A stretch of 64,000 bases of DNA from Streptomyces sp. DT2A-34. GTDB lineage: Bacteria > Actinomycetota > Actinomycetes > Streptomycetales > Streptomycetaceae. This document shows positions 27,764 through 49,748 of this stretch, piece by piece (positions within the stretch are counted from its first letter, which is position 1; every line of letters begins with the position of its first letter). The DNA lies in NCBI RefSeq assembly GCF_030499515.1, contig NZ_JASTWJ010000001.1, positions 9,776,001-9,840,000 of the forward strand, read 5' to 3'. The notes beneath the pieces are model-generated. The model did not search any database, was not told where the DNA came from, and was given only the letters and a program-made list of their open reading frames with translations. Position numbers and translations under genes: made by a program.

Positions 27764-27831
27764 TTGACTCGCTTCCGGAGCCACAGGCATGATCATGCCG
27801 TATTTTAGCATGGCGTTCCACAATGCGGCAC
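27764..27831. promoter_or_regulatory. Duplicated IclR promoter/operator (relic rightward promoter)
   Basis: TTGACT at 27764 and CATGAT 18 bp downstream resemble a rightward promoter. The 37-bp element 27795-27831 follows at once. It matches the element at 28906-28942 at 29 of 37 positions, including the core TTCCACAATG. Read leftward it contains TAAAAT, a possible -10 for the first IclR gene. Confidence 0.65.
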
Positions 27832-28078: not shown

Positions 28079-28831
28079 TCAGGCGCCGAGACGGCGCCCC
28101 GTGATCTCCGCGGCCGTGTCGGCGACCAGGCGGCCCCACTCGGGCAGCTTGTCGGCGTCGTACCGCGAATCGGGCATGGAGATGGCCACGGTGGCCAGCG
28201 GCGTGCCGTCCTCGTCGAGGATGGGCGCGGCGATGGCGCAGACGCCAGGCCGGTATTGGTTGCGGTTGACCGCGTAACCGTCGGTGCGGATCCGCCGCAG
28301 CTCGGCGCGCAGGTCCTCGGGGTCTGCGGGCGTCGACTCGCTGTAGCGCTCCAGGCCCTGCGTGATGAGCTCCTCGATGTCCTGCTTCGGCAGGTGGGCG
28401 AGGACCGCGCGCCCGGTGGCGGTGGCGTGCAGGGGTGAGGTGTCGCCGATGGCGTGGAAGGTTCGTACGGCGTGGTCGCAGTCCACGCGGTCCACCACGA
28501 CCATGCACTGGAGTGCGTCCGGCACCGACAGGTGGATGGTCTCGTTGGCCTTGTCCCGCAGGTGCACCATGGGTTCGCGGGCGGCGGCGAACAGGCTGGA
28601 CCCCTGTAGGGCGGCGGGGCGTACGGCCAGCACCCGGGCGCCGACCTCCCAGCGCGTGGTGTCCTTCCGGCTGGCCCGTAGCCAGCCGGCCTCCGCCAGC
28701 GTGACCAGGGTGCGCTGCACGGTCGACTTCGGCAGGCCGAAGATCTTGGTCAGCTCGCCCACGGTCACTGGCTGATGCTGGGCGACCGCCTCCAAGATCC
28801 GCAGCGATCTGGTGACGCTCTTCATTTCCAT
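28079..28831 (-). CDS. IclR-family regulator divergent from the amine operon
   Basis: The 250-residue paralogue of the preceding regulator shares its start MEMKS and helix-turn-helix (KSTVQRTLVTLAEAGWL), and its effector domain has NETIHLSVPDALQCMVVVDR. It is divergent from the long catabolic operon starting at 29106, and an operator-like 37-bp element overlaps both start regions. Repression relieved by a pathway intermediate is the usual mode in this family, and autorepression is likely. Confidence 0.92.
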   Translation of the reverse strand: MEMKSVTRSLRILEAVAQHQPVTVGELTKIFGLPKSTVQRTLVTLAEAGWLRASRKDTTRWEVGARVLAVRPAALQGSSLFAAAREPMVHLRDKANETIHLSVPDALQCMVVVDRVDCDHAVRTFHAIGDTSPLHATATGRAVLAHLPKQDIEELITQGLERYSESTPADPEDLRAELRRIRTDGYAVNRNQYRPGVCAIAAPILDEDGTPLATVAISMPDSRYDADKLPEWGRLVADTAAEITGRRLGA

Positions 28832-28875: not shown

Positions 28876-28904
28876 TTGACTCCCCTTTCTACCGCTGTCA
28901 TTCT
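28876..28904 (+). promoter_or_regulatory. Promoter of the amine catabolic operon
   Basis: TTGACT (28876-28881) and CATTCT (28899-28904) are separated by 17 bp, followed directly by the IclR-type operator. The first operon gene starts about 200 bp downstream. The same arrangement is present, without a gene to drive, 1.1 kb to the left. Confidence 0.6.
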
Positions 28905-28905
28905 C

Positions 28906-28942
28906 GTGCCAGATTCTAGCACAGCATTCCACAATGTGGCAC
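28906..28942. promoter_or_regulatory. IclR-type operator of the amine operon
   Basis: The element begins GTGCCA and ends TGGCAC, with an inner near-palindrome CCACAATGTGG, the kind of AT-centred dyad bound by IclR proteins. Read leftward it contains TAGAAT, a possible -10 for the IclR gene. A repressor bound here would block both divergent promoters. Confidence 0.65.
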
Positions 28943-29105
28943 GGCTTCGGGAGGGATCCCGCGCAAGTGAGCCGGAGCTACGAGATACGGACGATTGCGA
29001 GCTGTGGTCCCGCCGAAGGGCCCGGCCCCGTCCAAACCGCCTCGAATCGATCAGCCTCACGCCGGGGGCCCAGCATGCGCCGCGGCGAAACGAAAGGAAA
29101 GCCCT

Positions 29106-30242
29106 GTGTCAGCTGCCAGGAAGCGCGTCGCCGTCGTCGGCGTCGGAACGATGGGCAGCCAGGCCGCCTGGCGCCTGGCCGCCCGTGGAGCCGAGGTGGT
29201 CGGCTACGACCGCTTCGCCCCGGGCCACGACCGCAGCGCGGCCGGCGGCGAGACCCGGATCTTCCGCAGCGCCCACTTCGAGGACTCCCGGTACGTGCCG
29301 CTGCTCCAGCACGCCGACGCCCTCTGGGAGCAGCTTCAGCAGGAGACCGGCCGTGAGCTGCGCCGCCTGACCGGCTGCCTGCTCATGGGGCCGACCGATC
29401 ACCACCAGATGGCCACGGTCCTCGAGTCGATCGCCGAGCACGGCCTCGACCACGAGGTCCTCGACGCCGAGCTGCTCGCCAAGCGCTTCCCGCAGTTCCG
29501 GATCGAGGACGGCGACGCGGCCGTGCTCGACCGCCGCGCCGGCTTCATCCGCCCCGAGCTGACGATCCAGACCGCCGCCCGCCGCGCCGAGGAGCTCGGC
29601 GCCCGCATCCACCGCTACACCACGGTCCGCGAGATCGTCCCCGTCGCAGGCGGCGTCGAGATCCGCACCGACGCCGGCAGCGAGCACTTCGACACCGCCG
29701 TCGTCACGGTCGGCCCCTGGGTCAACGACCTGCTCCCCGAACTGCCCTGGGAGGTGGACATCCGCCGCCTCATCAGCGCCTGGTACGTGCCCACCACCGA
29801 CGCCTGGTTCGGCGAGGAGCGCCCCGCCTTCATCCGCACGGCGCCCACCCACTGCTACGGCCTGCCCTCCCCGGACGGCGTCTCCGTCAAGCTCGGTCTC
29901 TCCCGCGCCCTGCACCGCCCGGCCGGTGACCCGAACCGGCTCGACCGAGAGGTGGCCCCGGAGGAGCTGGAGATCTTCACGGAACTGATCAGGCGTCACA
30001 TGCCGGACCTGAACCCCGATCCGACCCGGCTCTCCGTCTACATGGAGGGCTACACCGAGAGCAGCCGTCCCCTGGTCGGGCCGCTGCCGGGCGCGGAGAA
30101 CGTCGTCCTGCTCGCCGGGTTCTCCGGACACGGCTTCAAGCTCTCGCCCGCCTTCGGCGACATCGCCGCCGACCTCGCGCTGGACGGCACCTCGCCCCGG
30201 CCCATCGACTTCATCTCCACCCTCGACCGAGCGGAGGCGTGA
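29106..30242 (+). CDS. FAD-dependent amine oxidase, sarcosine/N-methyltryptophan oxidase type
   Basis: The 378-residue flavoprotein has the N-terminal dinucleotide motif VVGVGTMGSQAAWRLA, the Glu of VVGYDRF-type strand 2, and the C-terminal GFSGHGFKLSPAFGDIAADL block typical of monomeric sarcosine oxidase and SolA. The segment that normally holds the Cys joined covalently to FAD reads VYMEGYTESSRPLVG, without a Cys, so the flavin is probably non-covalent. It would oxidise a secondary or primary amine and release H2O2. The GTG start has AAAGGAAAG upstream. It is the first gene of the operon and overlaps the next by four bases. Confidence 0.88.
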   Translation: MSAARKRVAVVGVGTMGSQAAWRLAARGAEVVGYDRFAPGHDRSAAGGETRIFRSAHFEDSRYVPLLQHADALWEQLQQETGRELRRLTGCLLMGPTDHHQMATVLESIAEHGLDHEVLDAELLAKRFPQFRIEDGDAAVLDRRAGFIRPELTIQTAARRAEELGARIHRYTTVREIVPVAGGVEIRTDAGSEHFDTAVVTVGPWVNDLLPELPWEVDIRRLISAWYVPTTDAWFGEERPAFIRTAPTHCYGLPSPDGVSVKLGLSRALHRPAGDPNRLDREVAPEELEIFTELIRRHMPDLNPDPTRLSVYMEGYTESSRPLVGPLPGAENVVLLAGFSGHGFKLSPAFGDIAADLALDGTSPRPIDFISTLDRAEA

Positions 30243-31234
30243 CGACCATGACCGCCCCCCTGTCCGTCGGCGTCCTGCGCGCCGAGCCCGGGACCAAGAC
30301 CCGCGGCACCGTCCCCGCCGACCTCGGCACCCTCACCCTGGACATTCCGCTGACCCTGGTCAACGGCGCCCACCCCGGCCCCCGCGTTCTGATCACGGCG
30401 GGCGTGCACGGCGGCGAGTTCACGGGGGTCGACGCGGCCACCCGATTGGCCGCTCTGCTGGAGCCCGGCGAGGTGCACGGTCAGGTGATCGTCTGCCCGG
30501 TCGCCAACCCCCCGGCCGTCTACCAGGGTCGCCTCGGCGCCTCCCCGCTCGACGGCGTGAACATCAACCGCGTCTTTCCCGGCGACCCCGACGGCAGCCC
30601 CACCGAACGTCTCGCGGCGTGGCTGTTCACCAACCTCGTGGACGGTGCCGACGCCTACGTCGACCTGCACTCCGGCGGCATCGACGAGGTCCTGACGGAT
30701 TTCGTCGGTTACCGCCTCACTGGTGACCCCGAACTGGACGCGCGGACAGCGGACATGGCCGGCGCGCTCGGCATCGAGGACGTCATCTTCGGAATGAACG
30801 CGGACGGCGGCAACAGTCACGCGGCCGCCGCCCGCCAGGGCATCCCGGCGATCCTCGTGGAGACCGGCCAGCTCGGCGAACGCGACGCGGACACCGCCCG
30901 TCGTCTCGTCGAGGGTTTGCATGGGGTACTGGGCCGGCTCGGCGTCCTGGACACCAAGCCCCAGGACGACACGGCCGTCCGCGCATGGGTCTGGGCCGCC
31001 GGCATCACCGCCGAGGCAACCGGCCTCTGGTATCCGGAGTTCACCGCCGGCGACGACGTGACGGAGGGCCAGGTCATCGGCCATGTCATCGACCCGGCCG
31101 ACGGCCAGGAGCACAAGGTCCACACCCCGGCCACCGGCCGGATCTTCTACGGCATGCACGGACTGACCGTCGCCCCCGGCGCCGAACTCGCCGCCATCGC
31201 CGCCCCGGCTCCCCAGGACTCCGGCGGCCACTGA
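30239..31234 (+). CDS. AstE/aspartoacylase-type zinc deacylase, first copy
   Basis: The 331-residue protein belongs to the succinylglutamate desuccinylase/aspartoacylase branch of M14 carboxypeptidases. Zinc ligands are visible in AGVHGGEFTG (His and Glu) and DLHSGG (His), with the likely catalytic Glu in VETGQLGE. A C-terminal beta domain follows (TEGQVIGHVIDPADGQEH). The family cleaves N-acyl amino acids or diamines, for example in arginine and ectoine breakdown. It overlaps the oxidase stop (GTGA) and precedes the transporter genes, so it likely acts on the imported compound or its oxidation product. Confidence 0.87.
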   Translation: MTTMTAPLSVGVLRAEPGTKTRGTVPADLGTLTLDIPLTLVNGAHPGPRVLITAGVHGGEFTGVDAATRLAALLEPGEVHGQVIVCPVANPPAVYQGRLGASPLDGVNINRVFPGDPDGSPTERLAAWLFTNLVDGADAYVDLHSGGIDEVLTDFVGYRLTGDPELDARTADMAGALGIEDVIFGMNADGGNSHAAAARQGIPAILVETGQLGERDADTARRLVEGLHGVLGRLGVLDTKPQDDTAVRAWVWAAGITAEATGLWYPEFTAGDDVTEGQVIGHVIDPADGQEHKVHTPATGRIFYGMHGLTVAPGAELAAIAAPAPQDSGGH

Positions 31235-31342
31235 CCCCACCCCCCCCAGCAAGTCCCCTCCCCGCACCACCAGAACGAGATCCCACCAGCACGCACCCCC
31301 ACGCTCCCCTTCCTCACGTACCGCACCACCAGGAGGCACCCG

Positions 31343-32446
31343 GTGAGAGATGTCCGGATAGACCGCAGAGGGTTTCTGCGCGGAGTCGGCGGCGTGGCCG
31401 CAGGCATCGCCGCCGCCACATCGCTCAGCGCCTGCGGCACCGGCACCAGCCGGTCCGTCGACAGCGGCGGCAAGAGCTCCAAGACCCTCGTGGTCCGCAA
31501 CAGCGGCGGCTCGTACGGCGACGCCAACCAGCAGGCGATCTACGAGCCGTTCACCAAGGAGACCGGCATCCAGGTCAAGGTGGTGAACGTCGAGTACGCC
31601 CAGATGCTCGCCCAGATCAAGCAGGGGCGCCCCCAGTTCGACGTCATCGACGACTCCATGGCCGACTTCGTGCTCTTCAAGCAGCAGGACGCCACCGAGG
31701 ACCTCGACTACGACCGGCTGAAGAACTTCAAGAACGCGGGCATCGCCAAGACCCTGGTGACCTCCAACGCGGTCGGCAAGAACTACTGGGCCAGCGTGAT
31801 GGCGTACCGTACGGACGCCTTTGGGGGGAAGAAACCTTCCTCCTGGGCGGACTTCTGGGACACCAAGACCTTCTCCGGCAACCGCGCGCTGCAGGCCCTG
31901 GACGCCGACCTGCCCGAGCTGGAGTTCGCCCTCCTCGCCGACGGCGTGGCGCTGGACAAGCTCTACCCGCTCGACGTGGACCGCGCCTTCAAGGTCCTCA
32001 GCGAGATCAAGCCCCACGTCCGCAAGTTCTGGGACACCGGCGCTCTGCCCGGCGTGCTCCTGGGCCGCAAGGAGGTTGACGCCTCCAGCGTGTGGCATGG
32101 CCGCCTGGACGCCCTGATCAAGGGCGGCTCCCCGCTCGCCTACCAGTGGAACGGCGCCCGCCGGCAGAGCAACGCCCTCGGCATCCCCAAGGGCGCCGCC
32201 AACCTCGACGCCGCCTACCAGCTCATCGACTTCGCCCTGCGGCCCGAGGTGCAGGCGGCCTACGCCGAGATCTACCCGATGGCCCCGTCGGTGCCGGCCG
32301 CCTACAAGAAGCTCAAGCCCGCCACCGCCGCGAACCTGGCCAGCTCGCCCGAGCACCTGGAGTCCGGCTTCGACCTGGACGTCGAGTGGTGGATCAAGAA
32401 CCAGGACGCCGTGTCCAAGCGCTGGCAGGAGTGGACGCATGCCTGA
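31343..32446 (+). CDS. Polyamine-type ABC transporter substrate-binding lipoprotein
   Basis: The 367-residue PotD-like protein has a Tat signal (DRRGFLRGVGG) followed by a hydrophobic stretch and a lipobox ending LSAC near residue 30. It would be exported folded and lipid-anchored. The mature part starts KTLVVRNSGGSYGDANQQAI and has the FDVIDDSMADFVLFKQ pocket region of extracellular solute-binding protein family 1. It starts at GTG after a GGAGG-type sequence. A 108-bp space before it, the largest in the operon, may allow separate expression. Confidence 0.9.
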   Translation: MRDVRIDRRGFLRGVGGVAAGIAAATSLSACGTGTSRSVDSGGKSSKTLVVRNSGGSYGDANQQAIYEPFTKETGIQVKVVNVEYAQMLAQIKQGRPQFDVIDDSMADFVLFKQQDATEDLDYDRLKNFKNAGIAKTLVTSNAVGKNYWASVMAYRTDAFGGKKPSSWADFWDTKTFSGNRALQALDADLPELEFALLADGVALDKLYPLDVDRAFKVLSEIKPHVRKFWDTGALPGVLLGRKEVDASSVWHGRLDALIKGGSPLAYQWNGARRQSNALGIPKGAANLDAAYQLIDFALRPEVQAAYAEIYPMAPSVPAAYKKLKPATAANLASSPEHLESGFDLDVEWWIKNQDAVSKRWQEWTHA

Positions 32447-33578
32447 GATCGACGTGATGCCCGAGCTGTCCCTGGCCTCAGCGGCCGACCTGACCGGTTC
32501 CGGCAAGCCCCTGTCCGTGACACGGCTTCGGAAAACCTACGGGGGAGTGACGGCCGTCGACGAGGTCTCCATGGAGATCGCGGCCGGCGAGTTCGTCACC
32601 TTCCTCGGCTCCTCCGGCTCCGGCAAGACCACCACCCTGATGATGATCGCCGGGTTCTGCGAGCCCGACTCCGGCAGCATCGTCGTCGGCGGCCGTGACG
32701 TGACCCGCCTCGCCCCGCAGAAGCGCGGCCTGGGCTTCGTCTTCCAGCAGTACCTGCTCTTCCCGCACATGACCGTCTGGGAGAACGTCGCCTTCCCCCT
32801 GCAACTGCGGGGCGTGTCCAAGGCGGAACAGCGCCGCCGGGTCGGCGAGACCCTGGAGATGGCCGGGCTGTCCGCCATGGCCCGCCGCCGCCCCCGCGAG
32901 CTGTCCGGCGGCCAGCAGCAGCGCGTCGCGCTGTGCCGGGCCCTGGTCTACCGGCCGCCGGTCATCCTCATGGACGAGCCGCTCGGCGCCCTCGACAAGA
33001 AGCTGCGCGACCAGCTCCAGACCGAGATCAAGCGCATCCAGCAGGAACTCGGCCTGACCGTCATCTACGTGACGCACGACCAGGAAGAGGCCCTCGTCCT
33101 CTCCGACCGCATCGCGGTGATGCGGGACGGCCGGATCGACCAGTTCGACACCCCGCAGGAGCTCTTCGAGCGTCCGCGCACTCCGTTCGTCGCCGATTTC
33201 CTCGGTGCCGCCAACTTCCTCCCGGGCCAAGTGGAGCAGCAGACGTCCGGCCACACCCTGGTACGTCTGGACACCGGCGGTGTACTGAAGGCCCGCCCGC
33301 AGGCGGGGCCCGAAGGAGCCCGGGTCCGTGCCGCGGTCCAGCCCGGCCGGCTCGCCCTGTGTCCCCCCGACGACGGATTCTGTACCGGGACGGTCGGGAC
33401 CGTCACCTACGTCGGCACGCTCGTACGCGTCACCGTCCGCCCTCTCGGCGAGGCGGCCACCGAACTCGTACGGCTGGAACTGCCCGCCGGCCGAGCCCCC
33501 GACCTCGGCGAGCGCATCGGCCTCACCGCGGACCCCGCGAACGTCAGCGTCTTCCCGGACGCGGAACACGGGGGATGA
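32439..33578 (+). CDS. Polyamine-type ABC transporter ATPase (PotA-like)
   Basis: The 379-residue protein has Walker A GSSGSGKTTTLMMI, Q-loop VFQQYLLFPHMTV, signature ELSGGQQQRVALCRAL, Walker B VILMDEPLGALDKK and switch His in VTHDQEEAL, followed by a TOBE domain from about residue 285. This is the importer ATPase of the PotA/UgpC group. It overlaps the binding-protein gene by eight bases and the permease by four. Confidence 0.93.
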   Translation: MPEIDVMPELSLASAADLTGSGKPLSVTRLRKTYGGVTAVDEVSMEIAAGEFVTFLGSSGSGKTTTLMMIAGFCEPDSGSIVVGGRDVTRLAPQKRGLGFVFQQYLLFPHMTVWENVAFPLQLRGVSKAEQRRRVGETLEMAGLSAMARRRPRELSGGQQQRVALCRALVYRPPVILMDEPLGALDKKLRDQLQTEIKRIQQELGLTVIYVTHDQEEALVLSDRIAVMRDGRIDQFDTPQELFERPRTPFVADFLGAANFLPGQVEQQTSGHTLVRLDTGGVLKARPQAGPEGARVRAAVQPGRLALCPPDDGFCTGTVGTVTYVGTLVRVTVRPLGEAATELVRLELPAGRAPDLGERIGLTADPANVSVFPDAEHGG

Positions 33579-34513
33579 CGATGGCCGGAACCGCACTGGC
33601 GCCCACCCCGGCGCCCGCCGCACCCACACCCGCCCCGGGCAAGCGCGGCCTGGGCCGCGCGCTGTCCGAACGGCGCACCCGCTTCGGACTGCTCAACGCC
33701 ACCCCCGTCGTCGTCTACCTCCTGATCCTCTTCGTCTATCCGATCTTCAGCACCCTGATGCTGAGCCTGAAGGGCGAGGAGGGCGGCTTCACCCTCCACT
33801 GGTACGCCGACGCCTTCCAGGGCGCGAACCTGGAGATCCTGCTCACGACCCTGCGGATCTCCGCCGAGACCTCCCTGCTCGCGCTGGTCGTCGGGTTCGT
33901 CCTGGCCTCGGCCATCTCGCGGCTCAAGCCGCTGTGGGCCGGCCTGGCGATGCTCGTGGTGGTCGTCCCGCACTTCATCAGCGCGCTGGTGCGCACCTAC
34001 GGCTGGATCATCCTGCTCGGTGACAACGGCGTGGTGAACAACGCCCTGACGGACATGCACGTCCCCGGCGCGCCCGTCCAGTTGCTCTACAACGAGATCG
34101 GCGTCGTCATCGGCACCACCGCCGTGATGCTGCCGTACACCGTGCTGCTGCTGTTCGCGGTGATGAAGGGCATCGACCGGCGCCTGATGGCCGCCGCGGC
34201 GAGCATGGGCGCGGGCCGGATCACCATCTTCCGCCGGGTCTACCTGCCCCTGGTGGCCCCCGGCCTGGTCAACGCCGGCGTGCTGTGCTTCATCCTCTGC
34301 CTCGGCTACTACCTCACGCCCGCCCTGATGGGCGGCGAGAAGCAGACCATGGTCGCCTCGCTCATCGACGAGCAGGTCATGAAGCAGAACCAGTGGAACG
34401 GCGCCTCGGCGCTCGGCATCATCCTGCTGCTCCTCACCTTCGCCGGACTGCTGCTGCTCAGGCTGCTGAAGTCGGCGGGCGAGGCCCTTCGGAACCGGGG
34501 TACGGCGTCATGA
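33575..34513 (+). CDS. ABC transporter permease (PotB-like)
   Basis: The 312-residue membrane protein has a Pro/Ala-rich cytoplasmic N-terminus (residues 1-25), then six membrane segments. The ATPase-coupling EAA loop is seen as AAAASMGAGRITIFRRVYLPLVAPGL. It starts at the ATG overlapping the ATPase stop; a second ATG two codons later is possible. It forms the translocation pore with the next gene product. Confidence 0.92.
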   Translation: MTMAGTALAPTPAPAAPTPAPGKRGLGRALSERRTRFGLLNATPVVVYLLILFVYPIFSTLMLSLKGEEGGFTLHWYADAFQGANLEILLTTLRISAETSLLALVVGFVLASAISRLKPLWAGLAMLVVVVPHFISALVRTYGWIILLGDNGVVNNALTDMHVPGAPVQLLYNEIGVVIGTTAVMLPYTVLLLFAVMKGIDRRLMAAAASMGAGRITIFRRVYLPLVAPGLVNAGVLCFILCLGYYLTPALMGGEKQTMVASLIDEQVMKQNQWNGASALGIILLLLTFAGLLLLRLLKSAGEALRNRGTAS

Positions 34514-35379
34514 TCGAGCTCCGTTCCACGCTGGCCGGACGCATCACCCTGGCCGTCCTGTCCACGCTGATCCTTTTGTTCCTGGCCCTGCCGATCATCG
34601 TCATCGTCGTCACCTCCTTCGGCAAGGACGCCTTCGGCTCCTTCCCGCCGGAGGCGTGGACCCTCGACTGGTACACGCAGCTGTTCGCCGACGGCAGCAA
34701 GTGGCCCGCCGCGCTGTCGCTCAGCGCCCTGGTGGCGGCCATGACCACGGTCTTTTCCCTGATCCTGGGGATGACCGCGGCCACCGCCCTCGTCCGCAGC
34801 GAACTTCCGCTGCGGTCGGCGGTCTACGGCCTGGTACTCGCCCCGCTGGTGATCCCCCAGGTCGTCATCGCCCTCGGTCTGTTCCTGCTCTTCGAGCCGG
34901 CCGCGATGCTCGGCAGCCCGATCGCCATCGCTCTCGGCCACACCGTGCTGGCCTCACCGATCGCCGTGATGATCCTCATGGCCACCCTGAAGGGCATCGA
35001 CGAACGGCTGGAGGACGCGGCCGCCAGCATGGGCGCGAACCGGCTGACCGTCTGGCGGCGGATCACCCTCCCGCTGGCCATGCCCGGCATGGTCGCCGCC
35101 GGCATCTTCTCCTTCATCACCAGCTTCGACGAGTTCTTCATCTCGCAGTTCCTGTCCTCCGTGGACACCGTGACCCTGCCCGTGCAGGTGTTCAACGTCC
35201 TCCAGTACAACGTCGACCCGTCGGTGACCGCCGTCAGCGCGATCCTCATCGCCGTCGCCGTCGTGGCCCTCGCCCTGGTCGGCGTGGTCCGCAAGCTCAG
35301 CGGCTCCGGCAAACAGGACGGCCTGCTGCCCACAGAACCCGGACTGGGCCTCCCCGCCGGAAGTGAGACCGCATCATGA
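34510..35379 (+). CDS. ABC transporter permease (PotC-like)
   Basis: The 289-residue membrane protein has six hydrophobic segments and the EAA loop DAAASMGANRLTVWRRITLPLAMPGM. The extracytoplasmic segment SFDEFFISQFLSS is common in PotC/YdcV proteins. ATGA overlaps couple it to both neighbours, so a fixed permease ratio is likely. Confidence 0.93.
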   Translation: MIELRSTLAGRITLAVLSTLILLFLALPIIVIVVTSFGKDAFGSFPPEAWTLDWYTQLFADGSKWPAALSLSALVAAMTTVFSLILGMTAATALVRSELPLRSAVYGLVLAPLVIPQVVIALGLFLLFEPAAMLGSPIAIALGHTVLASPIAVMILMATLKGIDERLEDAAASMGANRLTVWRRITLPLAMPGMVAAGIFSFITSFDEFFISQFLSSVDTVTLPVQVFNVLQYNVDPSVTAVSAILIAVAVVALALVGVVRKLSGSGKQDGLLPTEPGLGLPAGSETAS

Positions 35380-36767
35380 CCACCAGCACCCGCACACCCA
35401 CCGGTGAACTGTCCGCCACCGCGGCCAGACACCTCCTGCTCAACATGACCCCCAACGGCTCGCTCGGCCAGGACGGCGAGAACCTCTTCGTCGTCCAGCG
35501 TGGCGAGGGCCCGTACGTCGACGACGCCGACGGCAGGCGCTACATCGACGGTCTCTCCGGCCTGTACTGCTGCCAGCTCGGCTACTCCTACGCCCCCGAG
35601 TTCGCCGAGGCGGCGGACAAGCAGCTGCGAGAGCTGTGCTTCAGCCCGCTGTGGTCCTCCTCCGCGCACCCCACCGCCATCGAACTCGCCGAGCGGCTCT
35701 CGCGGATCGCGCCCGTCGATGTCGAGCACACGTTCTTCTCCGGCGGCGGGGCGGAAGCGGTGGAGACCGCCTGGAAGATCGCCCGCCGCTACCACGCCCT
35801 GCGCGGGGAACCGGGCCGGGTGAAGGCGATCTCCCGTCGCGGCGCCTACCACGGGCTGACCATCGGGGCTCTCTCCCTGACCGACGACCCCGGGCTGCGC
35901 GAACCCTACGGGCCGGGCGCGATCGAGACCCGGTTCGTGTCCAACACCAACCGCTTCGGCCTCGCCCCCGAGTACGTCGACGACGACGTGTACACCTCCC
36001 GTCTGCTCGCCGAGCTGGAGGCCGCGATCCTGGCCGAGGGCCCGGAGAGCATCGCGATGCTGATCGCCGAGCCGGTGCAGAACCGCGGCGGCTGCATCAC
36101 CCCGCCCCACGGCTACTGGCCGGGCCTCAGGGCGCTCGCCGACCGGTACGGCTTCCTCCTCGTCGCCGACGAGGTGATCACCGCCTTCGGGCGGCTGGGG
36201 GAGTGGTTCGGCGGCGACCGCTACGGCGCTCGCCCCGACATCGTCACCGTCGCCAAGGGCATCACCGCCGGATACGCCCCTATGGGAGCAACTCTGGTGA
36301 GCAACGGCGTCGTCGAGGTCATCAATCAACCGGGCGCGGTCCTCAACCACGGCTACACCTTCGCCGGGCACCCGCTGAGCGCGGCCATCGCCCTGCGCAG
36401 CCTGGAGATCATGGAGCGGGACCGGATCCTGGAGAACGTCCGCGGTCTGCAGGACCATCTCGCGACGCGTATGGCTTCCCTCGGAGACCTGAGAATCGTC
36501 GGTGACGTCCGGGGCGCCGGCTTCTTCTACGCCTGCGAACTCGTCGGCGACCTCGACGGCGGCGGCTTCAGCGACAAGGCCCGCGCCGATCTGATCGTCG
36601 ACCTCATCCCACGCCGACTTCGCGAGGCCGGCCTCCTGGCCCGCGTCTACAACCGCTCCGCCCCGCTGGTGCAGATCGCGCCCCCGCTGATCAGCGACCG
36701 GCACCTCCTCGACCGTATCGCCGACATCCTCGCGGAGACCCTCGCCGAGGCGTCCGCCCGCCTGTGA
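35376..36767 (+). CDS. Class III aminotransferase (omega-amino acid/diamine type)
   Basis: The 463-residue PLP enzyme has the cofactor-binding segments FFSGGGAEAVETAWKIAR and LLVADEVITAFGRLGEWF, and the Schiff-base Lys in TVAKGITAGYAPMG. It resembles putrescine/beta-alanine-pyruvate aminotransferases (SpuC group) more than ornithine or GABA enzymes. It would move a terminal amino group to pyruvate or 2-oxoglutarate, giving an aldehyde for the dehydrogenase encoded two genes downstream. Confidence 0.88.
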   Translation: MTTSTRTPTGELSATAARHLLLNMTPNGSLGQDGENLFVVQRGEGPYVDDADGRRYIDGLSGLYCCQLGYSYAPEFAEAADKQLRELCFSPLWSSSAHPTAIELAERLSRIAPVDVEHTFFSGGGAEAVETAWKIARRYHALRGEPGRVKAISRRGAYHGLTIGALSLTDDPGLREPYGPGAIETRFVSNTNRFGLAPEYVDDDVYTSRLLAELEAAILAEGPESIAMLIAEPVQNRGGCITPPHGYWPGLRALADRYGFLLVADEVITAFGRLGEWFGGDRYGARPDIVTVAKGITAGYAPMGATLVSNGVVEVINQPGAVLNHGYTFAGHPLSAAIALRSLEIMERDRILENVRGLQDHLATRMASLGDLRIVGDVRGAGFFYACELVGDLDGGGFSDKARADLIVDLIPRRLREAGLLARVYNRSAPLVQIAPPLISDRHLLDRIADILAETLAEASARL

Positions 36768-36805
36768 CACCCGCACCCGCCCCGCATTCGAAAGGAACCA
36801 CCCTC

Positions 36806-37759
36806 ATGTACTCCATCGGTCCGCTGTCCGTCGCCCCCGGCGAGCGCGCCCAGGGCCTCATCCCGGTCGGCACCAGCAGCTACGGCGTGGAGCTCGGCAT
36901 ACCGCTGATAGTCGTCAACGGTGCCCACGACGGCCCGGTGCTCTGCGTGGACGCGGGCGTGCACGGTGACGAGTACGACGGCCAGGAGGCCATCCGCCGC
37001 GTCCTCGCCGACATCGACCCGGCCACCTTGCGCGGCACGCTCGTCGGCATCCCCTGCATGAACACCCCGGCCTTCGAGGCGGCGGCCCGCACCAGCGGCC
37101 TCGACTACCTGAACCTCAACCGCATCTTCCCGGGCGACGCCGACGGCTCGTACTCCCTCCGTCTGGCGGCCACCTTCGTCGAGCAGGTCGTCCCGGCCAT
37201 CGACGCCCTGGTGGACCTGCACACCGGCGGCACCTTCGGTGAGATCGCCCCGCTCGTCATCCTTCAGGGCGGCTACGAGGAACTGGCCACCGACCTCGCC
37301 CTCGCGGCCGGGCACGAGCTGGTCTGGAAGGGCGGCAAGTGGGGCGGCACGGTCCGCCACCCCACTCTTGCGGCGGGCAAGCCCGCCATCACCATCGAGG
37401 CGGGTGGCGGCACCTACCGCGAGGCCAACGTCGAGCTGCACATCGGCTCGATCCGCAACATCATGCGGCAGCTGAAGATGATCGACGGCGAGACGGAGCT
37501 GCGGGAGAAGTACACGACGACCTCCGGCACCTTCGCCCGTTCCGCCGCCGGCGGCTTCTTCCTGGGACACGCCGAGCCGGGGGAGACGTGCAAGGAAGGC
37601 GACCTGATCGCCCACATCGTCGACCACTACGGCAACACGCTGGAGGAGGTCCGCGCCCCGCAGGACGGCATCGTGCTCTGGGTCCGCCGGATCCGTACCG
37701 TCCGCCCCGGCGACGAGGTCGTCATCTTCGGCGAGGTGCAGGGAGAAATCCAGCCATGA
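36806..37759 (+). CDS. AstE/aspartoacylase-type zinc deacylase, second copy
   Basis: The 317-residue protein is a second M14-type acylase. Zinc ligands are in AGVHGDEYDGQEA and DLHTGG, with an acidic residue in TIEAGGGTYREAN, and a C-terminal beta domain CKEGDLIAHIVDHYGN. It is clearly diverged from the first copy and not a recent duplicate. Two such acylases in one operon imply two acyl groups or two stages of deacylation. I chose the ATG giving MYSIGPLSVAPG, with AAAGGA upstream. Confidence 0.86.
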   Translation: MYSIGPLSVAPGERAQGLIPVGTSSYGVELGIPLIVVNGAHDGPVLCVDAGVHGDEYDGQEAIRRVLADIDPATLRGTLVGIPCMNTPAFEAAARTSGLDYLNLNRIFPGDADGSYSLRLAATFVEQVVPAIDALVDLHTGGTFGEIAPLVILQGGYEELATDLALAAGHELVWKGGKWGGTVRHPTLAAGKPAITIEAGGGTYREANVELHIGSIRNIMRQLKMIDGETELREKYTTTSGTFARSAAGGFFLGHAEPGETCKEGDLIAHIVDHYGNTLEEVRAPQDGIVLWVRRIRTVRPGDEVVIFGEVQGEIQP

Positions 37760-39210
37760 GCGGCGACACGCGGTTGCTTCTCGTCGACGGCAAACAGATT
37801 CCCGCCGCCGACGGCCGTACCTTCACCGTCCTCGACCCGTCGGACGGCACGGCCTTCGCCCAGGTGGCGCTGGCCGGAGCGGCGGACGTGGACCAGGCGG
37901 TGGCGGCGGCACACGCGGCCTTCGTCTCCCCCGAGTGGGCCCGGATGCGCGCCGCCGACCGGGGCAGGATCCTGTACCGGATCGCCGAGGCCATCCGCTA
38001 CCAGGGCGAACGCCTGGCCCGCCTGGAGAGCCAGGACGTCGGCAAGCCGCTCAGCCAGGCGAAGGCCGACGTCGAGGCCGCCGCCCGCTACTTCGAGTTC
38101 TACGCGGGCGTCGCCGACAAGCTCGGCGGCACGACGATTCCCCTCGGCCCCGGTCTGATCGACTACACCGTCCGCGAGCCGATCGGCGTCTCCGGGCAGA
38201 TCATCCCCTTCAACTACCCGCTGCAGAACACCGCGCGAGGCTCCGCCCCCGCACTGGCCGCGGGCTGCACGGTGGTGCTCAAGCCCTCTCCCGAGGCACC
38301 GATCACCCCGCTGGAGATCGGCAGGATCGCCCTGGAATGCGGCCTCCCGCCGGGCGTCTTGAACGTCGTCCCCGGCGACGGCGAGACCGGGGCGGCCCTC
38401 GCCGGGCACCCGGACATCGACCAGGTCACCTTCACCGGTTCTGTGCCCACCGGCATCAAGGTCGCCCAGGCGGCCGCCGCCAACGTGGTGCCCTCGGCCA
38501 CCGAGCTGGGCGGCAAGTCGCCGATCGTCGTCTTCGCCGACGCCGACTTCGACCTGGCGCTGACCGCGATCCTCGGGGCGTCGTTCAGCAACGCCGGACA
38601 GATGTGCTCGGCTGGGACGAGGCTGCTCCTCCAGCGCGGCGCCGAGGAGTTCCTGGACCGGCTGGTCGAGAAGATCGCCACTCTGCGCGTCGGCCCCGGC
38701 CTGACGGATCCGGACGTCGGCCCGCTGGTCGCCGCCCGGCAACGCGACCGGGTCCTGGGCTACCTGGATCTGGCACGGCAGGAAGGCGCGACGGTCCGCG
38801 TGGGCGGTGGCGCACCCTCCGACCCGGAGCTGGCGGATGGGTACTACGTGGAGCCGACCGTCCTGACCGGTTTGACGAACGACGCCCGTGTCGCCCGCGA
38901 GGAAATCTTCGGCCCCGTCATCACCGTGATCGACTTCGACCACGCGGACCAGGCTCTGGAGATCGCCAACGACAGCCCCTACGGCCTGGCCTCGTACATC
39001 TGGACCCGCGACATCGACAAGGCGATGCGCCTCGCCGAGGGCGTCCGGACCGGCCAGGTCTACGTCAACGCCACCGGCGTCGGCACCGGCGTCGAACTGC
39101 CCTTCGGCGGCTACAAGCACAGCGGCTGGGGCCGGGAGAAGGGCCTCGAAGCCCTGGCCAGCTACACGCAGACCAAGAACGTCTGCATCGGATTCGGGAG
39201 CCGGACATGA
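37756..39210 (+). CDS. Aldehyde dehydrogenase (amino-aldehyde type)
   Basis: The 484-residue NAD(P)-dependent enzyme has the Asn-bearing IIPFNYPLQNTARGSAPAL, catalytic Glu in ATELGGKSPIVVF and Cys in FSNAGQMCSAGTRLLL, and ends PFGGYKHSGWGREKG. It is closest in look to betaine-aldehyde and gamma-aminobutyraldehyde dehydrogenases. It would oxidise the aldehyde made by the aminotransferase or by the flavin oxidases. It overlaps both neighbours by four bases. Confidence 0.92.
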   Translation: MSGDTRLLLVDGKQIPAADGRTFTVLDPSDGTAFAQVALAGAADVDQAVAAAHAAFVSPEWARMRAADRGRILYRIAEAIRYQGERLARLESQDVGKPLSQAKADVEAAARYFEFYAGVADKLGGTTIPLGPGLIDYTVREPIGVSGQIIPFNYPLQNTARGSAPALAAGCTVVLKPSPEAPITPLEIGRIALECGLPPGVLNVVPGDGETGAALAGHPDIDQVTFTGSVPTGIKVAQAAAANVVPSATELGGKSPIVVFADADFDLALTAILGASFSNAGQMCSAGTRLLLQRGAEEFLDRLVEKIATLRVGPGLTDPDVGPLVAARQRDRVLGYLDLARQEGATVRVGGGAPSDPELADGYYVEPTVLTGLTNDARVAREEIFGPVITVIDFDHADQALEIANDSPYGLASYIWTRDIDKAMRLAEGVRTGQVYVNATGVGTGVELPFGGYKHSGWGREKGLEALASYTQTKNVCIGFGSRT

Positions 39211-40145
39211 GGTACCGCACGCTCGGTGAACGCGGGCCGGCCGTCTCGGTGGTGGGCGTCGGCGGCAACAACTTCGGCTCCCGTCTCGACGAGGACGGCA
39301 CGAAGGCCGTCGTGCACGCTGCCCTCGACGCGGGCATCACCCTGTTCGACACGGCCGACATGTACGGCGGGTTCGGCGACCAGGGCGGCTCGCGCGGGGA
39401 CGGTGAACGCCTCCTCGGGGCCGCCCTCAAGGGCCACCGCGACGAGGTCGTCCTCGCCACCAAGTTCGGCATGGACATGGGCCGGGATGCCGACCTGTAC
39501 GGGCCGCGAGGCGCCCGCGGCTACATCCGCCACGCCGTGGAGGCGTCGTTGCGCCGCCTGGGCACCGACCGTATCGACCTGTACCAGTACCACGAGCCGG
39601 ACGGCGTCACCCCGCTCGACGAGACTGTGACCGCCCTGCGGGAACTGGTCGACGAGGGCAAGATCGGCCACATCGGTTGCTCCAACCTTCCGGCCGAGGA
39701 CCTGTCCGAGGCGTTCGTCAGCACCCAGGCCCGCTACCACCTGCTCGACCGCAGTGTGGAGGAGGACCTGATCCCGGCCTGTCTGCGCCACGGCCTCGGC
39801 CTGCTGCCGTACTACCCGCTGGCCAACGGCCTGCTCAGCGGCAAGTACCGGCGCGGCGAGCAGCCCCCGCCCGGCAGCCGCCTGTCCTGGCGGCAGGGCT
39901 GGCTGACCGACGCGGCCCTCGACCGGGTCGAGGCGCTCACCTCGTATGCCACCGAGCGCGACCTGACCCTCCTCCAGGTCGCGGTGGGCGGACTCGCCGC
40001 CCTGCCCGCCGTCGGCTCGGTCATCTGCGGCGCCATGACCCCCGAACAGGTCACCGCCAACGCGGCGGCGGCCGACTGGCTCCCCGACGCGGCCGACCTG
40101 GCCGCACTCGACGCGATCGTCACCCCCGGCGAGCGGATCGTCTGA
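39207..40145 (+). CDS. Aldo/keto reductase
   Basis: The 312-residue TIM-barrel protein has the AKR catalytic set: Asp/Tyr in FDTADMYGGFG, Lys in VVLATKFGMDM and a His in LYQYHEPD, with the C-terminal NADPH-binding end GSVICGAMTPEQVTANAAA. It would reduce an aldehyde or ketone intermediate, or run as a dehydrogenase. Its presence beside an aldehyde dehydrogenase gives the pathway two fates for the aldehyde. Confidence 0.88.
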   Translation: MRYRTLGERGPAVSVVGVGGNNFGSRLDEDGTKAVVHAALDAGITLFDTADMYGGFGDQGGSRGDGERLLGAALKGHRDEVVLATKFGMDMGRDADLYGPRGARGYIRHAVEASLRRLGTDRIDLYQYHEPDGVTPLDETVTALRELVDEGKIGHIGCSNLPAEDLSEAFVSTQARYHLLDRSVEEDLIPACLRHGLGLLPYYPLANGLLSGKYRRGEQPPPGSRLSWRQGWLTDAALDRVEALTSYATERDLTLLQVAVGGLAALPAVGSVICGAMTPEQVTANAAAADWLPDAADLAALDAIVTPGERIV

Positions 40146-40189
40146 CCCTCCCCCGTCCCTGTAAGAACCTGAAACCGAGGTTGAACACC

Positions 40190-40855
40190 ATGCGAGAGAT
40201 CGTCACCTTCGACGCCTACGGCACCCTGGTCGACTTCCAGCTCGGCCCCACCACCCTCAAGGTCCTCTCCGACCGGCTGGACCTGGACAACCTGGACGTC
40301 GACGAGTTCCTCGACGACTTCCGCGTCATGCGCTTCCAGGCCGTCCTGGAGGCATACCGCCCCTACCACGAGATCCTGCACTCCAGCCTCCAGATGGCCA
40401 TGCGCCTGCACGGTCTGGAGTACCGCACCTCCGACGGCGACGCTCTCGTCGAGGCCGTCCCCACCTTCGGCCCCTTCCCGGAGGTCCCGGACGCCCTGCG
40501 CGCGCTGAAGACCAAGTACGAGATCGCCATCATCACCAACAGCGACGACAACCTCATCGCACGGAACGTCGAGAACATCGGCGTCGACTTCGACTACGTC
40601 ATCACAGCCGAGCAGGCCGGCGCGTACAAGCCGGACCGGCAGACCTTCGAGCACGCCTTCAAGACGATGGGCGTCGAGCCGTCCCAGGTCATCCACACCG
40701 CCCAGGGCTGGGAGTACGACCACATCCCGACCCGTGACCTCGGCCTGAAGCGCCGCGTGTGGATCAACCGCTACGGCCGCCCCGGTAGCGCCGACTACCA
40801 GCCCTACGACGAGCTGACCGACATGACGGGTCTGCCGAAGCTGCTCGGCTGCTGA
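40190..40855 (+). CDS. Haloacid dehalogenase type II-like HAD hydrolase
   Basis: The 221-residue protein has nucleophile motif TFDAYGTLVDF, motif II IAIITNSDDNLIA, Lys in AGAYKPDRQTFEHAF and the motif typical of type II 2-haloacid dehalogenases (VIHTAQGWEYDHIPTRDLGL). True dehalogenases release halide from 2-haloacids. Many relatives are phosphatases. Its role in an amine operon is unclear and is one of the odd features of the locus. Confidence 0.85.
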   Translation: MREIVTFDAYGTLVDFQLGPTTLKVLSDRLDLDNLDVDEFLDDFRVMRFQAVLEAYRPYHEILHSSLQMAMRLHGLEYRTSDGDALVEAVPTFGPFPEVPDALRALKTKYEIAIITNSDDNLIARNVENIGVDFDYVITAEQAGAYKPDRQTFEHAFKTMGVEPSQVIHTAQGWEYDHIPTRDLGLKRRVWINRYGRPGSADYQPYDELTDMTGLPKLLGC

Positions 40856-40905
40856 CGACACGGCTACACGGCGACACAGGACAGAGAACACAGAGGACGC
40901 ACGCC

Positions 40906-42189
40906 ATGAAGCAGATCCCCTACTGGCTCGACACCGCCCCCGCCCTGCCCGACCGGTCCGGAAAGGACCTGCCCGACGAGGCGGACGTGGTGGTCATCGG
41001 CGGCGGCCTCACCGGCCTGTCCACCGCCTACCACACCGCCCGCAAGGGCGCCCGGACCGTCCTCGTCGAGAAGGACAAGGTCGGCTCGGGCGCCTCCGGG
41101 CGCAACGGCAGCATGTGCACCCAGGGCATCACCATCGGTGTCGGCGAGGCCCGCAAGCGCTACGGCCAGGAGCGCGCCCGCGAGCTCTACGACGCGTTCC
41201 GCGAGGCGGTCGACGTGGTCGAGGAACTCACCCACACCGAGAAGATCGACTGCGACTTCAACCGCGCCGGACGCCTCGGAGTCGCCTTCAAGCCCCAGCA
41301 CTTCGAGTCGATGAAGGCCACCCAGCGCGACCTGGCCGACAACTTCGACCACGAGACCCAGCTCCTGACCCGCAGCGAGCTGAAGGCCGAGCTGGGCTCG
41401 GACTACTACCACGGTGCCCTGCTCGACCCGCTCAGCGCCGCCCTGCACGTCGGCAAGTACGTCCACGGCCTGGCCGAGGCCGCCGAACGCGCCGGCGCGG
41501 AGATCCACGAACGCAACGCGGCCACCGGCCTCACCCGCCTCCCCGGCGGTGGCTTCCTCGTCGAGACCCTGCACGGCACCATCCGTGCCAAGCAGGTCAT
41601 GGCCGCCACCGACGCCTACACCGACAAGGCCCTGCCCTGGTTCCGCAAGCGGCTGATCAACGTCGGCAGCTTCATCATCGTCACCGAGCCGCTCGGCGAG
41701 GCGCGCGCCAAGGAACTGATCCCCAACGCCCGCCTGGTGGTCGACTCCAAGAACGTCGGCCACTACCTCCGCCTCACCCCCGACAACCGCCTCGCCTTCG
41801 GCGGCCGGGCCCGCTTCGCCCCTTCCAACCCCGCCTCCGACGTCAAGAGCGGCGACATCCTGAAGCAGGAGATGACGGAGATCTTCCCGCAGTTGGCGGG
41901 CGTCCGCGTCGACTACGTGTGGGGCGGCATGGTCGGCTTCTCCTGGGACCGCCTCCCGCACGCGGGCGAGGTCAACGGCCTGTACTACTCCATGGGCTAC
42001 TGCGGCCACGGCGTCCAGATGGCCACCTACATGGGCCGTGCCGTCGCCGAGATGATGGACGGCAAGCCGGAGGCCAACCCCCTGCGCGGACTCGGCTTCC
42101 CCAAGGTCCCCGTCCCCTTCTACAACGGCACCCCCTGGTTCCTGCCGTTCGGCGGCGCCTACTACAAGGCCAAGGACCGCCTGCGCTGA
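40906..42189 (+). CDS. FAD-dependent oxidoreductase, gamma-glutamylputrescine oxidase (PuuB) type
   Basis: The 427-residue DAO-family flavoprotein starts with PYWLDTAP, typical of PuuB relatives. It has the FAD motif DVVVIGGGLTGLSTAYHTA, the SGRNGSMCTQG loop, and the C-terminal YSMGYCGHGVQMATYMG block. PuuB-type enzymes oxidise an N-acylated diamine to the aldehyde. No PuuA glutamyl-ligase or PuuD hydrolase is present, so the acyl group may come from the imported compound. It is the last gene before a terminator. Confidence 0.88.
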   Translation: MKQIPYWLDTAPALPDRSGKDLPDEADVVVIGGGLTGLSTAYHTARKGARTVLVEKDKVGSGASGRNGSMCTQGITIGVGEARKRYGQERARELYDAFREAVDVVEELTHTEKIDCDFNRAGRLGVAFKPQHFESMKATQRDLADNFDHETQLLTRSELKAELGSDYYHGALLDPLSAALHVGKYVHGLAEAAERAGAEIHERNAATGLTRLPGGGFLVETLHGTIRAKQVMAATDAYTDKALPWFRKRLINVGSFIIVTEPLGEARAKELIPNARLVVDSKNVGHYLRLTPDNRLAFGGRARFAPSNPASDVKSGDILKQEMTEIFPQLAGVRVDYVWGGMVGFSWDRLPHAGEVNGLYYSMGYCGHGVQMATYMGRAVAEMMDGKPEANPLRGLGFPKVPVPFYNGTPWFLPFGGAYYKAKDRLR

Positions 42190-42213
42190 GCCGCTGCCGA
42201 CCTCGGTGACACT

Positions 42214-42252
42214 GCGGGGGCTTTCCGCGAAGTGGTCGTGGGAAGCCCCCCG
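42214..42252 (+). terminator. Terminator closing the amine operon
   Basis: GCGGGGGCTTTCC pairs with GGGAAGCCCCCCGC around a loop of about 13 nt. It lies 25 bp after the last operon gene and separates it from the aspartase gene. Confidence 0.8.
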
Positions 42253-42369
42253 CCGTTACGGGACACCGCGTCCCCCTTGAGACGTTCGTGTGGCGGCTAA
42301 CGCCCCGATGACTGCGGTGCGCCCCGTTTGCCATGCCTGAAACCGCTCCAAGAGAAGGTCCGCACAGCC

Positions 42370-47863: not shown

Positions 47864-47887
47864 CGGGTTCTCACAGGTGTTGAGGGA

Positions 47888-48325
47888 TCAGAACGCGACG
47901 AGATGAGGCAGCGAGACGCCCAGCGCGACGATGAAGAGCAAATAAGACGCTGCACACGCGGCCAGCGCCACGGCCAGGCTGAGCCGCCAGCTGTCCCGGC
48001 CGAAGCCGCGCATCCACAGCACCAGCAGGAGCACCGTCATGACCTCGAAGCCCACCTGCTCGATGAGCAGGGTGTACGCGACCAGCGACAGGGCGCCCAG
48101 GGCCACCACGGCGGTTTGCCTGCTGAACGGCTCCTGCTCGGTGTCCGCGCCGGGATTGAGGAGCAGCGAGGCGGACAGCGTCACCATGGTGAGGCTCACG
48201 ATCAGGGGCCACAGCCCGGGGCCGGGGTCGGCGGGCGAACCCAGTCCCATCGATACGGCCGCCAGGGCGGCGAGGGCGCCGATGCCGAGCGGCACCAGCG
48301 CCCCCAGTCGTGCCTGGGTCCTCAT
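47888..48325 (-). CDS. tctB: Tripartite tricarboxylate transporter, small membrane subunit
   Basis: The 145-residue protein has four predicted membrane segments and the TctB motif region GLGSPADPGPGLWPLIVS near the N-terminus. It pairs with TctA. It lies between tctC and tctA with short gaps. Confidence 0.88.
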   Translation of the reverse strand: MRTQARLGALVPLGIGALAALAAVSMGLGSPADPGPGLWPLIVSLTMVTLSASLLLNPGADTEQEPFSRQTAVVALGALSLVAYTLLIEQVGFEVMTVLLLVLWMRGFGRDSWRLSLAVALAACAASYLLFIVALGVSLPHLVAF

Positions 48326-48328
48326 GCC

Positions 48329-49348: not shown

Positions 49349-49539
49349 TGTTCTCCTTCATGGGTGGGGTTCTGGCCGGCCGGGGTCACCACCGCGGGAG
49401 CGGTGGCTGCGTCCAGTCGGGGTGCTCGCGCCGCATGGCCGCGACGTCGTCGCAGTCGTGGCACTGCGGCGTCCGGTTGAACCGTTCGTGCAGGCGGGCT
49501 GGTCGTGCAGGCGGGCTGGCACCAGGGCGTGGACGTCCG

Positions 49540-49731: not shown

Positions 49732-49748
49732 GACGGTCCCTCACTTCC

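Follow-up and report, generated by a model that had tools for sequence, protein, structure and literature searches.

One of the closest described systems is the utilization of L-azetidine-2-carboxylate (AZC) in Pseudomonas, where, in the relevant passages of PMC8016842, AZC is hydrolysed to 2-hydroxy-4-aminobutyrate, which enters through a homologue of the gamma-aminobutyrate (GABA) transporter and is then transaminated. In soils, the mugineic acids are readily degraded by microbes, and the exchange of their azetidine ring for proline was meant to resist this biodegradation, as stated in the sections of PMC7946895 and PMC12364333 that deal with it. Here we describe an operon of twelve genes from Streptomyces sp. 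DT2A-34, at positions 29106 to 42189 of a stretch of 64,000 nucleotides ("the window"; 9.776-9.840 Mb of the 10.17 Mb contig C1, in a genome of 10.33 Mb on two contigs). Judged by its predicted protein families, the locus may serve the catabolism of an imported N-substituted amino acid with an AZC unit, for which nicotianamine and the mugineic-acid phytosiderophores are the best candidates; we regard this as a serious possibility that falls somewhat short of an even chance. Passage through 4-amino-2-hydroxybutyrate is the firmer part and is rather probable. A complete bacterial pathway for nicotianamine and the mugineic-acid phytosiderophores, of which the pieces would enter the tricarboxylic acid cycle as fumarate and oxaloacetate, is put forward more tentatively.

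The twelve genes (g1 to g12) were read directly as open reading frames that run head to tail on the forward strand. Six of the eleven junctions are 4-bp overlaps and another overlaps by 8 bp; the gaps measure 108, 44 and 50 bp, with a further 38 bp ahead of AstE2 when its ATG at 36806 is taken as the start. A GTG at 36764 would make a seventh 4-bp overlap, and the ATG has the better ribosome site. The original prediction of about twelve genes transcribed head to tail is therefore confirmed, with a palindrome before and a hairpin behind them, as is that of a coherent operon for uptake and degradation with oxidases, an aminotransferase, an aldehyde dehydrogenase (ALDH) and N-acyl amino acid hydrolase families; overlaps of 4 bp at "most" junctions hold in the sense of six out of eleven, or seven with the GTG start. 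Pfam gave families for the first ten genes and the HAD protein, and NCBIfam did so for nine of the twelve as well as for the IclR gene upstream; for g12 the basis is NCBIfam and PDB matches only. Related loci were found through a scan with AstE2, the best 80 of 95 being considered, and genes were counted only where sequence was available. SolA is retained in 58 of 59 loci, AstE1 in 58/59, the binding protein in 60/65, the ATPase in 62/67, the permeases in 63/69 and 64/71, the aminotransferase in 70/79, ALDH in 78/80, the aldo/keto reductase (AKR) in 74/80, the HAD in 77/79 and the DAO-type oxidase in 75/79. The figure for AstE2 is 80/80 by construction, since the loci were collected through it. 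The same genes are thus kept in nearly all related loci, and the operon is real and not a product of chance.

In nicotianamine and the mugineic acids, secondary amines connect C4 aminocarboxylate units with an azetidine ring. Of the compounds considered, they match the locus best because one or two flavin-dependent C-N oxidations, opening of the azetidine, transamination of a 4-amino-2-hydroxy acid, succinate-semialdehyde dehydrogenase (SSADH), oxidation of a D-hydroxyacid and aspartase would all be needed for their breakdown. In the proposed scheme, a GABA/opine-type ABC system (binding protein g3, 31343-32446; ATPase g4, 32439-33578; permeases g5, 33575-34513, and g6, 34510-35379, the last three by Pfam) would import the free or metal-bound compound. 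The SolA/MSOX-like flavin oxidase (g1, 29106-30242, with a GTG start behind GAAAGGAAAG) would oxidise the secondary amine beside the carboxylate, giving aspartate semialdehyde, or malic semialdehyde in the case of deoxymugineic acid, and the DAO-type flavin oxidase (g12, 40906-42189) would cut the second N-CH2 bond to yield AZC and another C4 semialdehyde. The HAD type II protein (g11, 40190-40855) is the candidate for opening AZC with its aspartate nucleophile to (2R)-4-amino-2-hydroxybutyrate, which an aminotransferase and the SSADH encoded upstream might convert to malic semialdehyde and then D-malate; the operon itself encodes a class III omega-aminotransferase (g7, 35376-36767). An FAD/FeS dehydrogenase would take D-malate to oxaloacetate, while ALDH (g9, 37756-39210) would produce aspartate from aspartate semialdehyde and aspartase would release fumarate from it. 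The two zinc acylases AstE1 (g2, 30239-31234) and AstE2 (g8, 36806-37759) probably deacylate the substrate or its intermediates where these are N-acylated, a role that the M20 deacylases of the Rhodococcus and rhizobial relatives might share. The remaining gene encodes an AKR (g10, 39207-40145) that was assigned, like g7 and g9, with both Pfam and NCBIfam.

The HAD protein, previously regarded as a mere oddity, looks instead like the most informative enzyme of the operon. It exceeds the cut-off of TIGR01428 (137 bits against 125), and its best sequence match in the PDB is the AZC hydrolase 3smv, with 32% identity over 202 amino acids in BLAST. When the whole genome was compared with AZC hydrolase, only g11 and one other HAD gave clear matches, with E values of 1e-25 and 1e-27, the third match having an E value of 8e-4. 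Residues D8 and K147 of g11, which represent the nucleophilic Asp and the catalytic Lys of HAD enzymes, are invariant in 21 sequences and align with the Asp of the FDxYGTL motif and the Lys of YKP in the AZC-hydrolase orthologues. The title of PDB entry 8hp7, which belongs to the family matched by g11, describes a mutant HAD enzyme that has trapped (2R)-4-amino-2-hydroxybutanoic acid. Two of six plasmid contexts of AZC-hydrolase orthologues contain an aminotransferase, an SSADH and a tartrate or FAD/FeS dehydrogenase. In these two, L152 and L155 (orthologues of 54% and 61% identity), the SSADHs are 47-49% identical to the one at this locus and the aminotransferases only 27-32%; L152 has the tartrate dehydrogenase, while L155 has gabP and an FAD/FeS enzyme 38% identical to that of this locus over the 687 amino acids in view. 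The contexts L151, L153 and L154 have a flavoprotein oxidoreductase within 2 kb of the orthologue, none of them close to g12 or SolA, and L150 has none of these neighbours and an AstE-family gene at about 6 kb. The contexts of seven further HAD relatives (L086, L087, L088, L090, L092, L093 and L094) are without the pattern. The second clear match in the genome, at about 8.86 Mb, belongs to a paralogous locus (L083, 8857000-8875999) with GntR, DAO (53%) and HAD genes, a GABA/opine-type ABC system (60-76%) and an SSADH, and adjoins an IS4/5-family transposase.

The functional unit extends on both sides beyond the boundaries first proposed for it. Upstream, on the forward strand, lie a class III aminotransferase gene that we call gabT (20864-22234, below the cut-offs of named models), an FAD/FeS D-2-hydroxyacid dehydrogenase-like reading frame related to YdiJ (22105-25098, with an uncertain start; Pfam, and 452 bits with the YdiJ model against a cut-off of 1350) and the SSADH-type gene (25095-26534; 577.6 bits, cut-off 646). 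They precede the IclR genes in 12 of 15 stretches from other Streptomyces and are absent upstream in the other three (L136, L141 and L149); a PucR-family regulator of this unit (19092-20834, minus strand) is found in 11 of the 12 linked loci. Downstream, the aspartate ammonia-lyase gene aspA (42370-43779, forward strand; TIGR00839, 699 bits against a cut-off of 681) follows the operon in 42 of the 77 loci where this is visible, in several genera. The operon, the upstream gabT, D-hydroxyacid dehydrogenase and SSADH genes and the downstream aspA form one larger locus. In another Streptomyces genome, G762, DAO, HAD and MFS genes stand beside gabT, FAD/FeS dehydrogenase and SSADH genes (L186; HAD 55%, DAO 32%), and no AstE2 or close SolA match was found there at the cut-offs used. 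HAD, DAO and PucR genes are also neighbours in L187, L188, L189 and L192. Genes for a tripartite tricarboxylate transporter (TctA, TctC) and a DHDPS-family gene lie near aspA on the minus strand (window positions 46247-50780), and further off, at 11898-15459, are a COX1-family oxidase subunit gene (plus strand) and a cytochrome b gene (minus strand).

Both flavin oxidases have relatives in similar company elsewhere. The product of g1 scores above the curated cut-off of the MSOX/MTOX family (NCBIfam N-methyl-L-tryptophan oxidase, 315.3 against 257 bits). In the alignment to MSOX, the positions of Arg52, Lys265 and Lys348, which we take to be carboxylate- and oxygen-site residues, are kept, and that of Cys315, presumably the flavin-linking residue, is a Tyr. 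Covalent attachment of FAD at this position is therefore unlikely, and g1 may hold its FAD non-covalently. For g12, the PDB matches are weak and even the best NCBIfam models, L-pipecolate oxidase with 188 bits against a cut-off of 600 and aminophosphonate oxidoreductase with 172 bits against 633, fall far short. Plasmid records were scanned as the best 40 of 473, 60 of 1274 and 60 of 416 matching records. Among the matches listed, at least nine records carry both a HAD and a g12-like DAO, and the best places are directly adjacent in eight of nine, the exception being Sinorhizobium fredii NGR234, where they are 39 kb apart. Such pairs were seen in Sinorhizobium meliloti (L156), Rhodococcus opacus (L157/L162), Massilia (L160) and Rhizobium etli (L161); in L158 and L159 the DAO has no adjacent HAD.

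The neighbours of these pairs extend the resemblance. On R. opacus pROB01 there are SolA (41%), DAO (50%), HAD (39%), SSADH (55%) and aspA (70%), and also an aminotransferase, an ALDH, an M20 deacylase, a family-5 ABC system, a cation-efflux gene and an ArsR/SmtB gene. The rhizobial clusters add an aminotransferase, GNAT, SSADH, a tartrate-dehydrogenase-like gene and an ArgE-type deacylase. The Massilia cluster adjoins a TonB siderophore receptor, and in Phyllobacterium the DAO lies between heavy-metal ATPases; these metal-linked neighbours fit a chelator as substrate. Plasmids of rhizobia and Rhodococcus would seem to repeat the logic of the locus, with different importers and deacylases and with other enzymes for the oxidation of D-malate or tartrate. 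The R. etli cluster (L161) includes otnK/otnI tetronate genes. In two actinobacterial loci, L040 and L072, SolA, AstE1 and AstE2 form a stand-alone module; in L040, from Streptomyces, it is preceded by a tartrate dehydrogenase and followed by a gene with four-carbon-acid-kinase Pfam domains, an Asp/Glu racemase-family gene and a 2-oxo-tetronate isomerase, to which the R. etli isomerase is 52% identical, the kinases being unmatched by BLAST. Such variants with tetronate and tartrate enzymes may handle hydroxylated mugineic acids.

On a plasmid of Rhodococcus sp. JS3073, about 19 kb contain, in another order and with the importer kept, gabT (64%), SolA (46%), the ATPase (51%), HAD (54%), SSADH (72%), the D-hydroxyacid dehydrogenase (56%) and the aminotransferase (57%), with an AZC-hydrolase orthologue (52%) about 10 kb beyond this cluster. 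The linkage in this strain and in G762 independently supports a single pathway. AstE, g12-type DAO, AKR and aspA are unmatched within the 40.7 kb of the JS3073 plasmid that were examined. A SolA, a HAD and the aminotransferase, SSADH and D-hydroxyacid set without a g12-type DAO, aspA or AstE match could also be read as the same 4-amino-2-hydroxybutyrate chemistry applied to AZC itself or to a simple N-acyl- or N-methyl-AZC, which AstE would deacylate and SolA dealkylate. Fungal AZC detoxification employs, according to the passages concerned in PMC8016842, an N-acetyltransferase besides a HAD hydrolase, and GNAT genes occur in the R. opacus and rhizobial clusters. Yet DAO, ALDH and aspA, which are kept in the proportions given above, would have little to do on AZC, and we consider such a plain substrate unlikely, if still credible, by comparison with the larger azetidine-containing chelators.

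The importer had been described as one of the polyamine type, which is not upheld in the classic sense. The binding protein g3, assigned by Pfam and PDB sequence matches, carries a twin-arginine motif (RRGFLRG) and a lipobox (LSAC), both read directly. In the PDB it is most similar to two unnamed ABC binding proteins (187.8 and 159.7 bits) and a GABA sensor protein (145.9), followed by 4eq7, deposited as "Polyamine" (137.8), and by agropine- (136.9) and mannopine-binding (132.4) proteins; putrescine- and spermidine-binding proteins (73.5 and 66.9 bits) rank behind the GABA/opine proteins. The best NCBIfam model, PotD, is far below its cut-off (66.9 of 582 bits). In five related loci (L041, L054, L074, L075 and L077) another ABC system replaces the PotABCD-like importer together with the aminotransferase; it is a polar-amino-acid system by family in L074 and L041, and by the layout of reading frames only in the others. 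Three Lentzea loci are among these, while a fourth (L078) keeps the usual importer. These data bear on the earlier working model, in which an N-acylated diamine or polyamine is imported and converted through an aldehyde to an N-acyl amino acid, from which deacylation would yield GABA. A DAO-type oxidase, an omega-aminotransferase, an ALDH and acylases are indeed present, gabT and SSADH lie next door, and 4eq7 is among the better matches of g3. That chemistry is partly supported; the model with its GABA end point is nevertheless improbable and less likely than a C4-aminocarboxylate route, since it has no function for SolA, the HAD, the D-hydroxyacid dehydrogenase or the aspartase that is conserved downstream, and both the affinity of g3 and the polar-amino-acid importers in L074 and L041 argue against it. 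The putrescine (Puu) route was rejected, the binding-protein matches giving it no support; neither the PuuA ligase nor PuuD, the absence of which had been predicted, was found among the families of the operon proteins, to which that search was confined. Amadori and opine sugars were considered in view of SolA-type amadoriases, and no supporting neighbour was seen.

The two acylases (AstE1, Pfam PF24827, best PDB match 3cdx; AstE2, by Pfam) reach 96.3 and 111 bits with the DoeB model, of which the cut-off is 402.7, and cannot be equated with DoeB/EutE. A genome-wide search for the ectoine hydrolase EutD/DoeA (TIGR02993) reached no more than 72.8 bits, where the cut-off is 613, in agreement with its predicted absence; the 14 genomes used as controls stayed below this threshold too, and thus offered no positive control. 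An ectoine-like route would have AstE deacetylate N-acyl-2,4-diaminobutyrate, which would be transaminated, oxidised to aspartate and deaminated by AspA: AstE2 is a relative of DoeB, the aminotransferase, ALDH and aspA would complete the route, and ectoine routes end in aspartate in the part of PMC8739950 concerned with them. This route, which would leave SolA, DAO and HAD idle, seems very improbable and was rejected, given the scores of both acylases and of TIGR02993; moreover, in the survey section of the same source, all 363 eutD/eutE pairs are proteobacterial. Of three contexts of distant AstE relatives, two have several AstE/M14 genes and a peptide-type ABC system, with no clue to the substrate. 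A 415-residue metagenomic protein (P0077) has AstE and ALDH domains, by fusion or frameshift, and echoes the 4-bp overlap of AstE2 and ALDH.

Several observations weigh against the breakdown of nicotianamine and mugineic acids as set out above. In a tree of HAD proteins, g11 lies outside the AZC-hydrolase branch with support of 99/99 and is not an orthologue. Its predicted structure matches dehalogenases and cis-epoxysuccinate hydrolases equally well, and neither this comparison nor the tree discriminates as to substrate. The two AstE acylases and the AKR are without an explained role. The putative oxidation of D-malate is a further weak point of the pathway: YdiJ itself does not use D-malate, while the D2HGDH of Pseudomonas aeruginosa does, in the portion of PMC10034468 that treats it. 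The structural result would equally suit a secondary-amine aminocarboxylate without an azetidine, such as an opine-type metallophore or an EDDS-like or aspergillomarasmine-like compound, in which case the HAD would attack an epoxide or a different leaving group; the aspartase, the opine-type binding protein, the metal genes near relatives and the tartrate dehydrogenase in several clusters are in line with it as well. It would leave unexplained why the HAD travels with an aminotransferase, an SSADH and a D-2-hydroxyacid oxidase, as do two AZC-hydrolase orthologues, and we judge it distinctly unlikely. The azetidine-containing chelators remain our preferred substrates.

Loci of this type, among the best 80, occur in Streptomyces, Saccharothrix, Lentzea, Kribbella, Nonomuraea and Micromonospora, and in one Catenulisporales assembly and one unclassified actinobacterium. 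Strains of Streptomyces canus, with AstE2 97-99% identical, were the closest named relatives that the AstE2 scan gave. Of 246 sampled Streptomyces genomes, its own included, 22 have AstE2, 26 have a close HAD and 30 have SolA relatives at the cut-offs applied. Because AstE2 is present in so few of them, the operon is an accessory trait in Streptomyces, and one that is present in other actinobacterial genera too. A phylum-wide scan with AstE2 (E 1e-30) matched 26 of 396 genomes including its own, with only 28-34% identical relatives beyond two Streptomyces, and a class-wide scan (E 1e-60) matched 2 of 394, the same two Streptomyces. Within the 80 loci, ten have tandem SolA copies, and L038 and L050 have two SolA genes and lack the aminotransferase and DAO. 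Two genomes with the operon have extra HAD copies (76%) elsewhere, in L190 and L191, each at a distance of about 6.5 kb from an AstE1-like gene (66-68%); the extra HAD of L190 also adjoins a DAO match (80%). These may represent a second, partial cluster.

Two IclR-family genes lie between the upstream unit and the operon, both on the minus strand: one divergent from g1 (28079-28831; NCBIfam BhcR, 173.6 bits, below the cut-off of 350) and a tandem paralogue (26975-27724; Pfam IclR_C). Ahead of the operon is a palindromic operator, GTGCCAGATTCTAGCAC, at 28906-28922, with a conserved 15-mer. It is probably the site of an IclR-type regulator, as judged from its position. In a genome-wide search with GTGCYAGAWTCTRGCAC, the operator was the sole perfect match in 10.3 Mb, no second perfect site being found, and the exact 15-mer recurs in 35 of 53 orthologous upstream regions across genera, that of the window included. 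Weaker sites are noise, since a reversed-pattern control gave more matches genome-wide than the pattern itself (36 against 16). A second site, TTCCACAATGTGGCAC, at 28927-28942 has a copy with one mismatch at 27816-27831, upstream of the second IclR gene. Behind g12, at about 42211-42256 on the forward strand, there is a hairpin that is a possible terminator: the 91-nucleotide stretch after the gene has a folding energy of -45 kcal/mol (z -2.25) that is matched by 7 of 200 shuffled sequences, the hairpin has no T-run, and it was not listed by a scan for consensus terminators.

Narrow text searches returned no paper on the gene set of this operon, and a non-exhaustive search of the open-licence literature gave none that names bacterial genes for the degradation of mugineic acid. 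Nor did searches of the AZC literature bring up a published account, with named actinobacterial genes, of how AZC reaches central metabolism. If the proposal is true, the possible target is the chelators that grasses secrete to obtain iron; the locus would then name the enzymes of a well-known soil process, provide a trait marker for soil genomes and open the process to direct genetic tests in an easily handled Streptomyces. If only the half concerning AZC and 4-amino-2-hydroxybutyrate is true, it would still propose, gene by named gene, how actinobacteria might channel AZC into central metabolism.

There are clear parallels with known systems, each accompanied by differences. With ectoine and hydroxyectoine degradation (EutD-EutE / DoeABCD), the locus shares an AstE-family deacylase, an aminotransferase and an aldehyde dehydrogenase directed towards aspartate, whereas it has two diverged AstE proteins, flavin oxidases and a HAD, and no EutD/DoeA above the cut-off. 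The Puu route through gamma-glutamyl-putrescine has a DAO-type oxidase, an ALDH and an aminotransferase in common with it; here the operon lacks the glutamyl ligase and PuuD, the binding protein is different, and a HAD and D-hydroxyacid enzymes are added. The MSOX / N-methyltryptophan oxidase family has its fold and its carboxylate- and oxygen-site residues in common with g1, which is without the flavin-linking Cys. The clusters of rhizobia (R. etli p42f, S. meliloti, Rhizobium sp. BT03) and of R. opacus pROB01 share the HAD, DAO, aminotransferase, SSADH, ALDH and a deacylase, with a tartrate-dehydrogenase-like gene in the rhizobia and aspA and SolA on pROB01, but they employ M20 deacylases in place of AstE, a family-5 ABC importer where one is seen, and GNAT genes, and their HADs form a separate group from g11 in the tree. 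Finally, AZC utilization, as in Pseudomonas A2C and with AzhA of Aspergillus nidulans, has in common with this locus a HAD type II enzyme and a transamination, here with a class III aminotransferase; GABA-type transport in Pseudomonas is paralleled by the GABA/opine-type importer. Linkage to an SSADH and a D-hydroxyacid oxidase is seen at this locus and at two on plasmids that have AZC-hydrolase orthologues, while the HAD of the operon, at 32% identity, is from another branch, and two extra flavin oxidases, two AstE acylases, an AKR, an ALDH and aspA set the Streptomyces locus apart.

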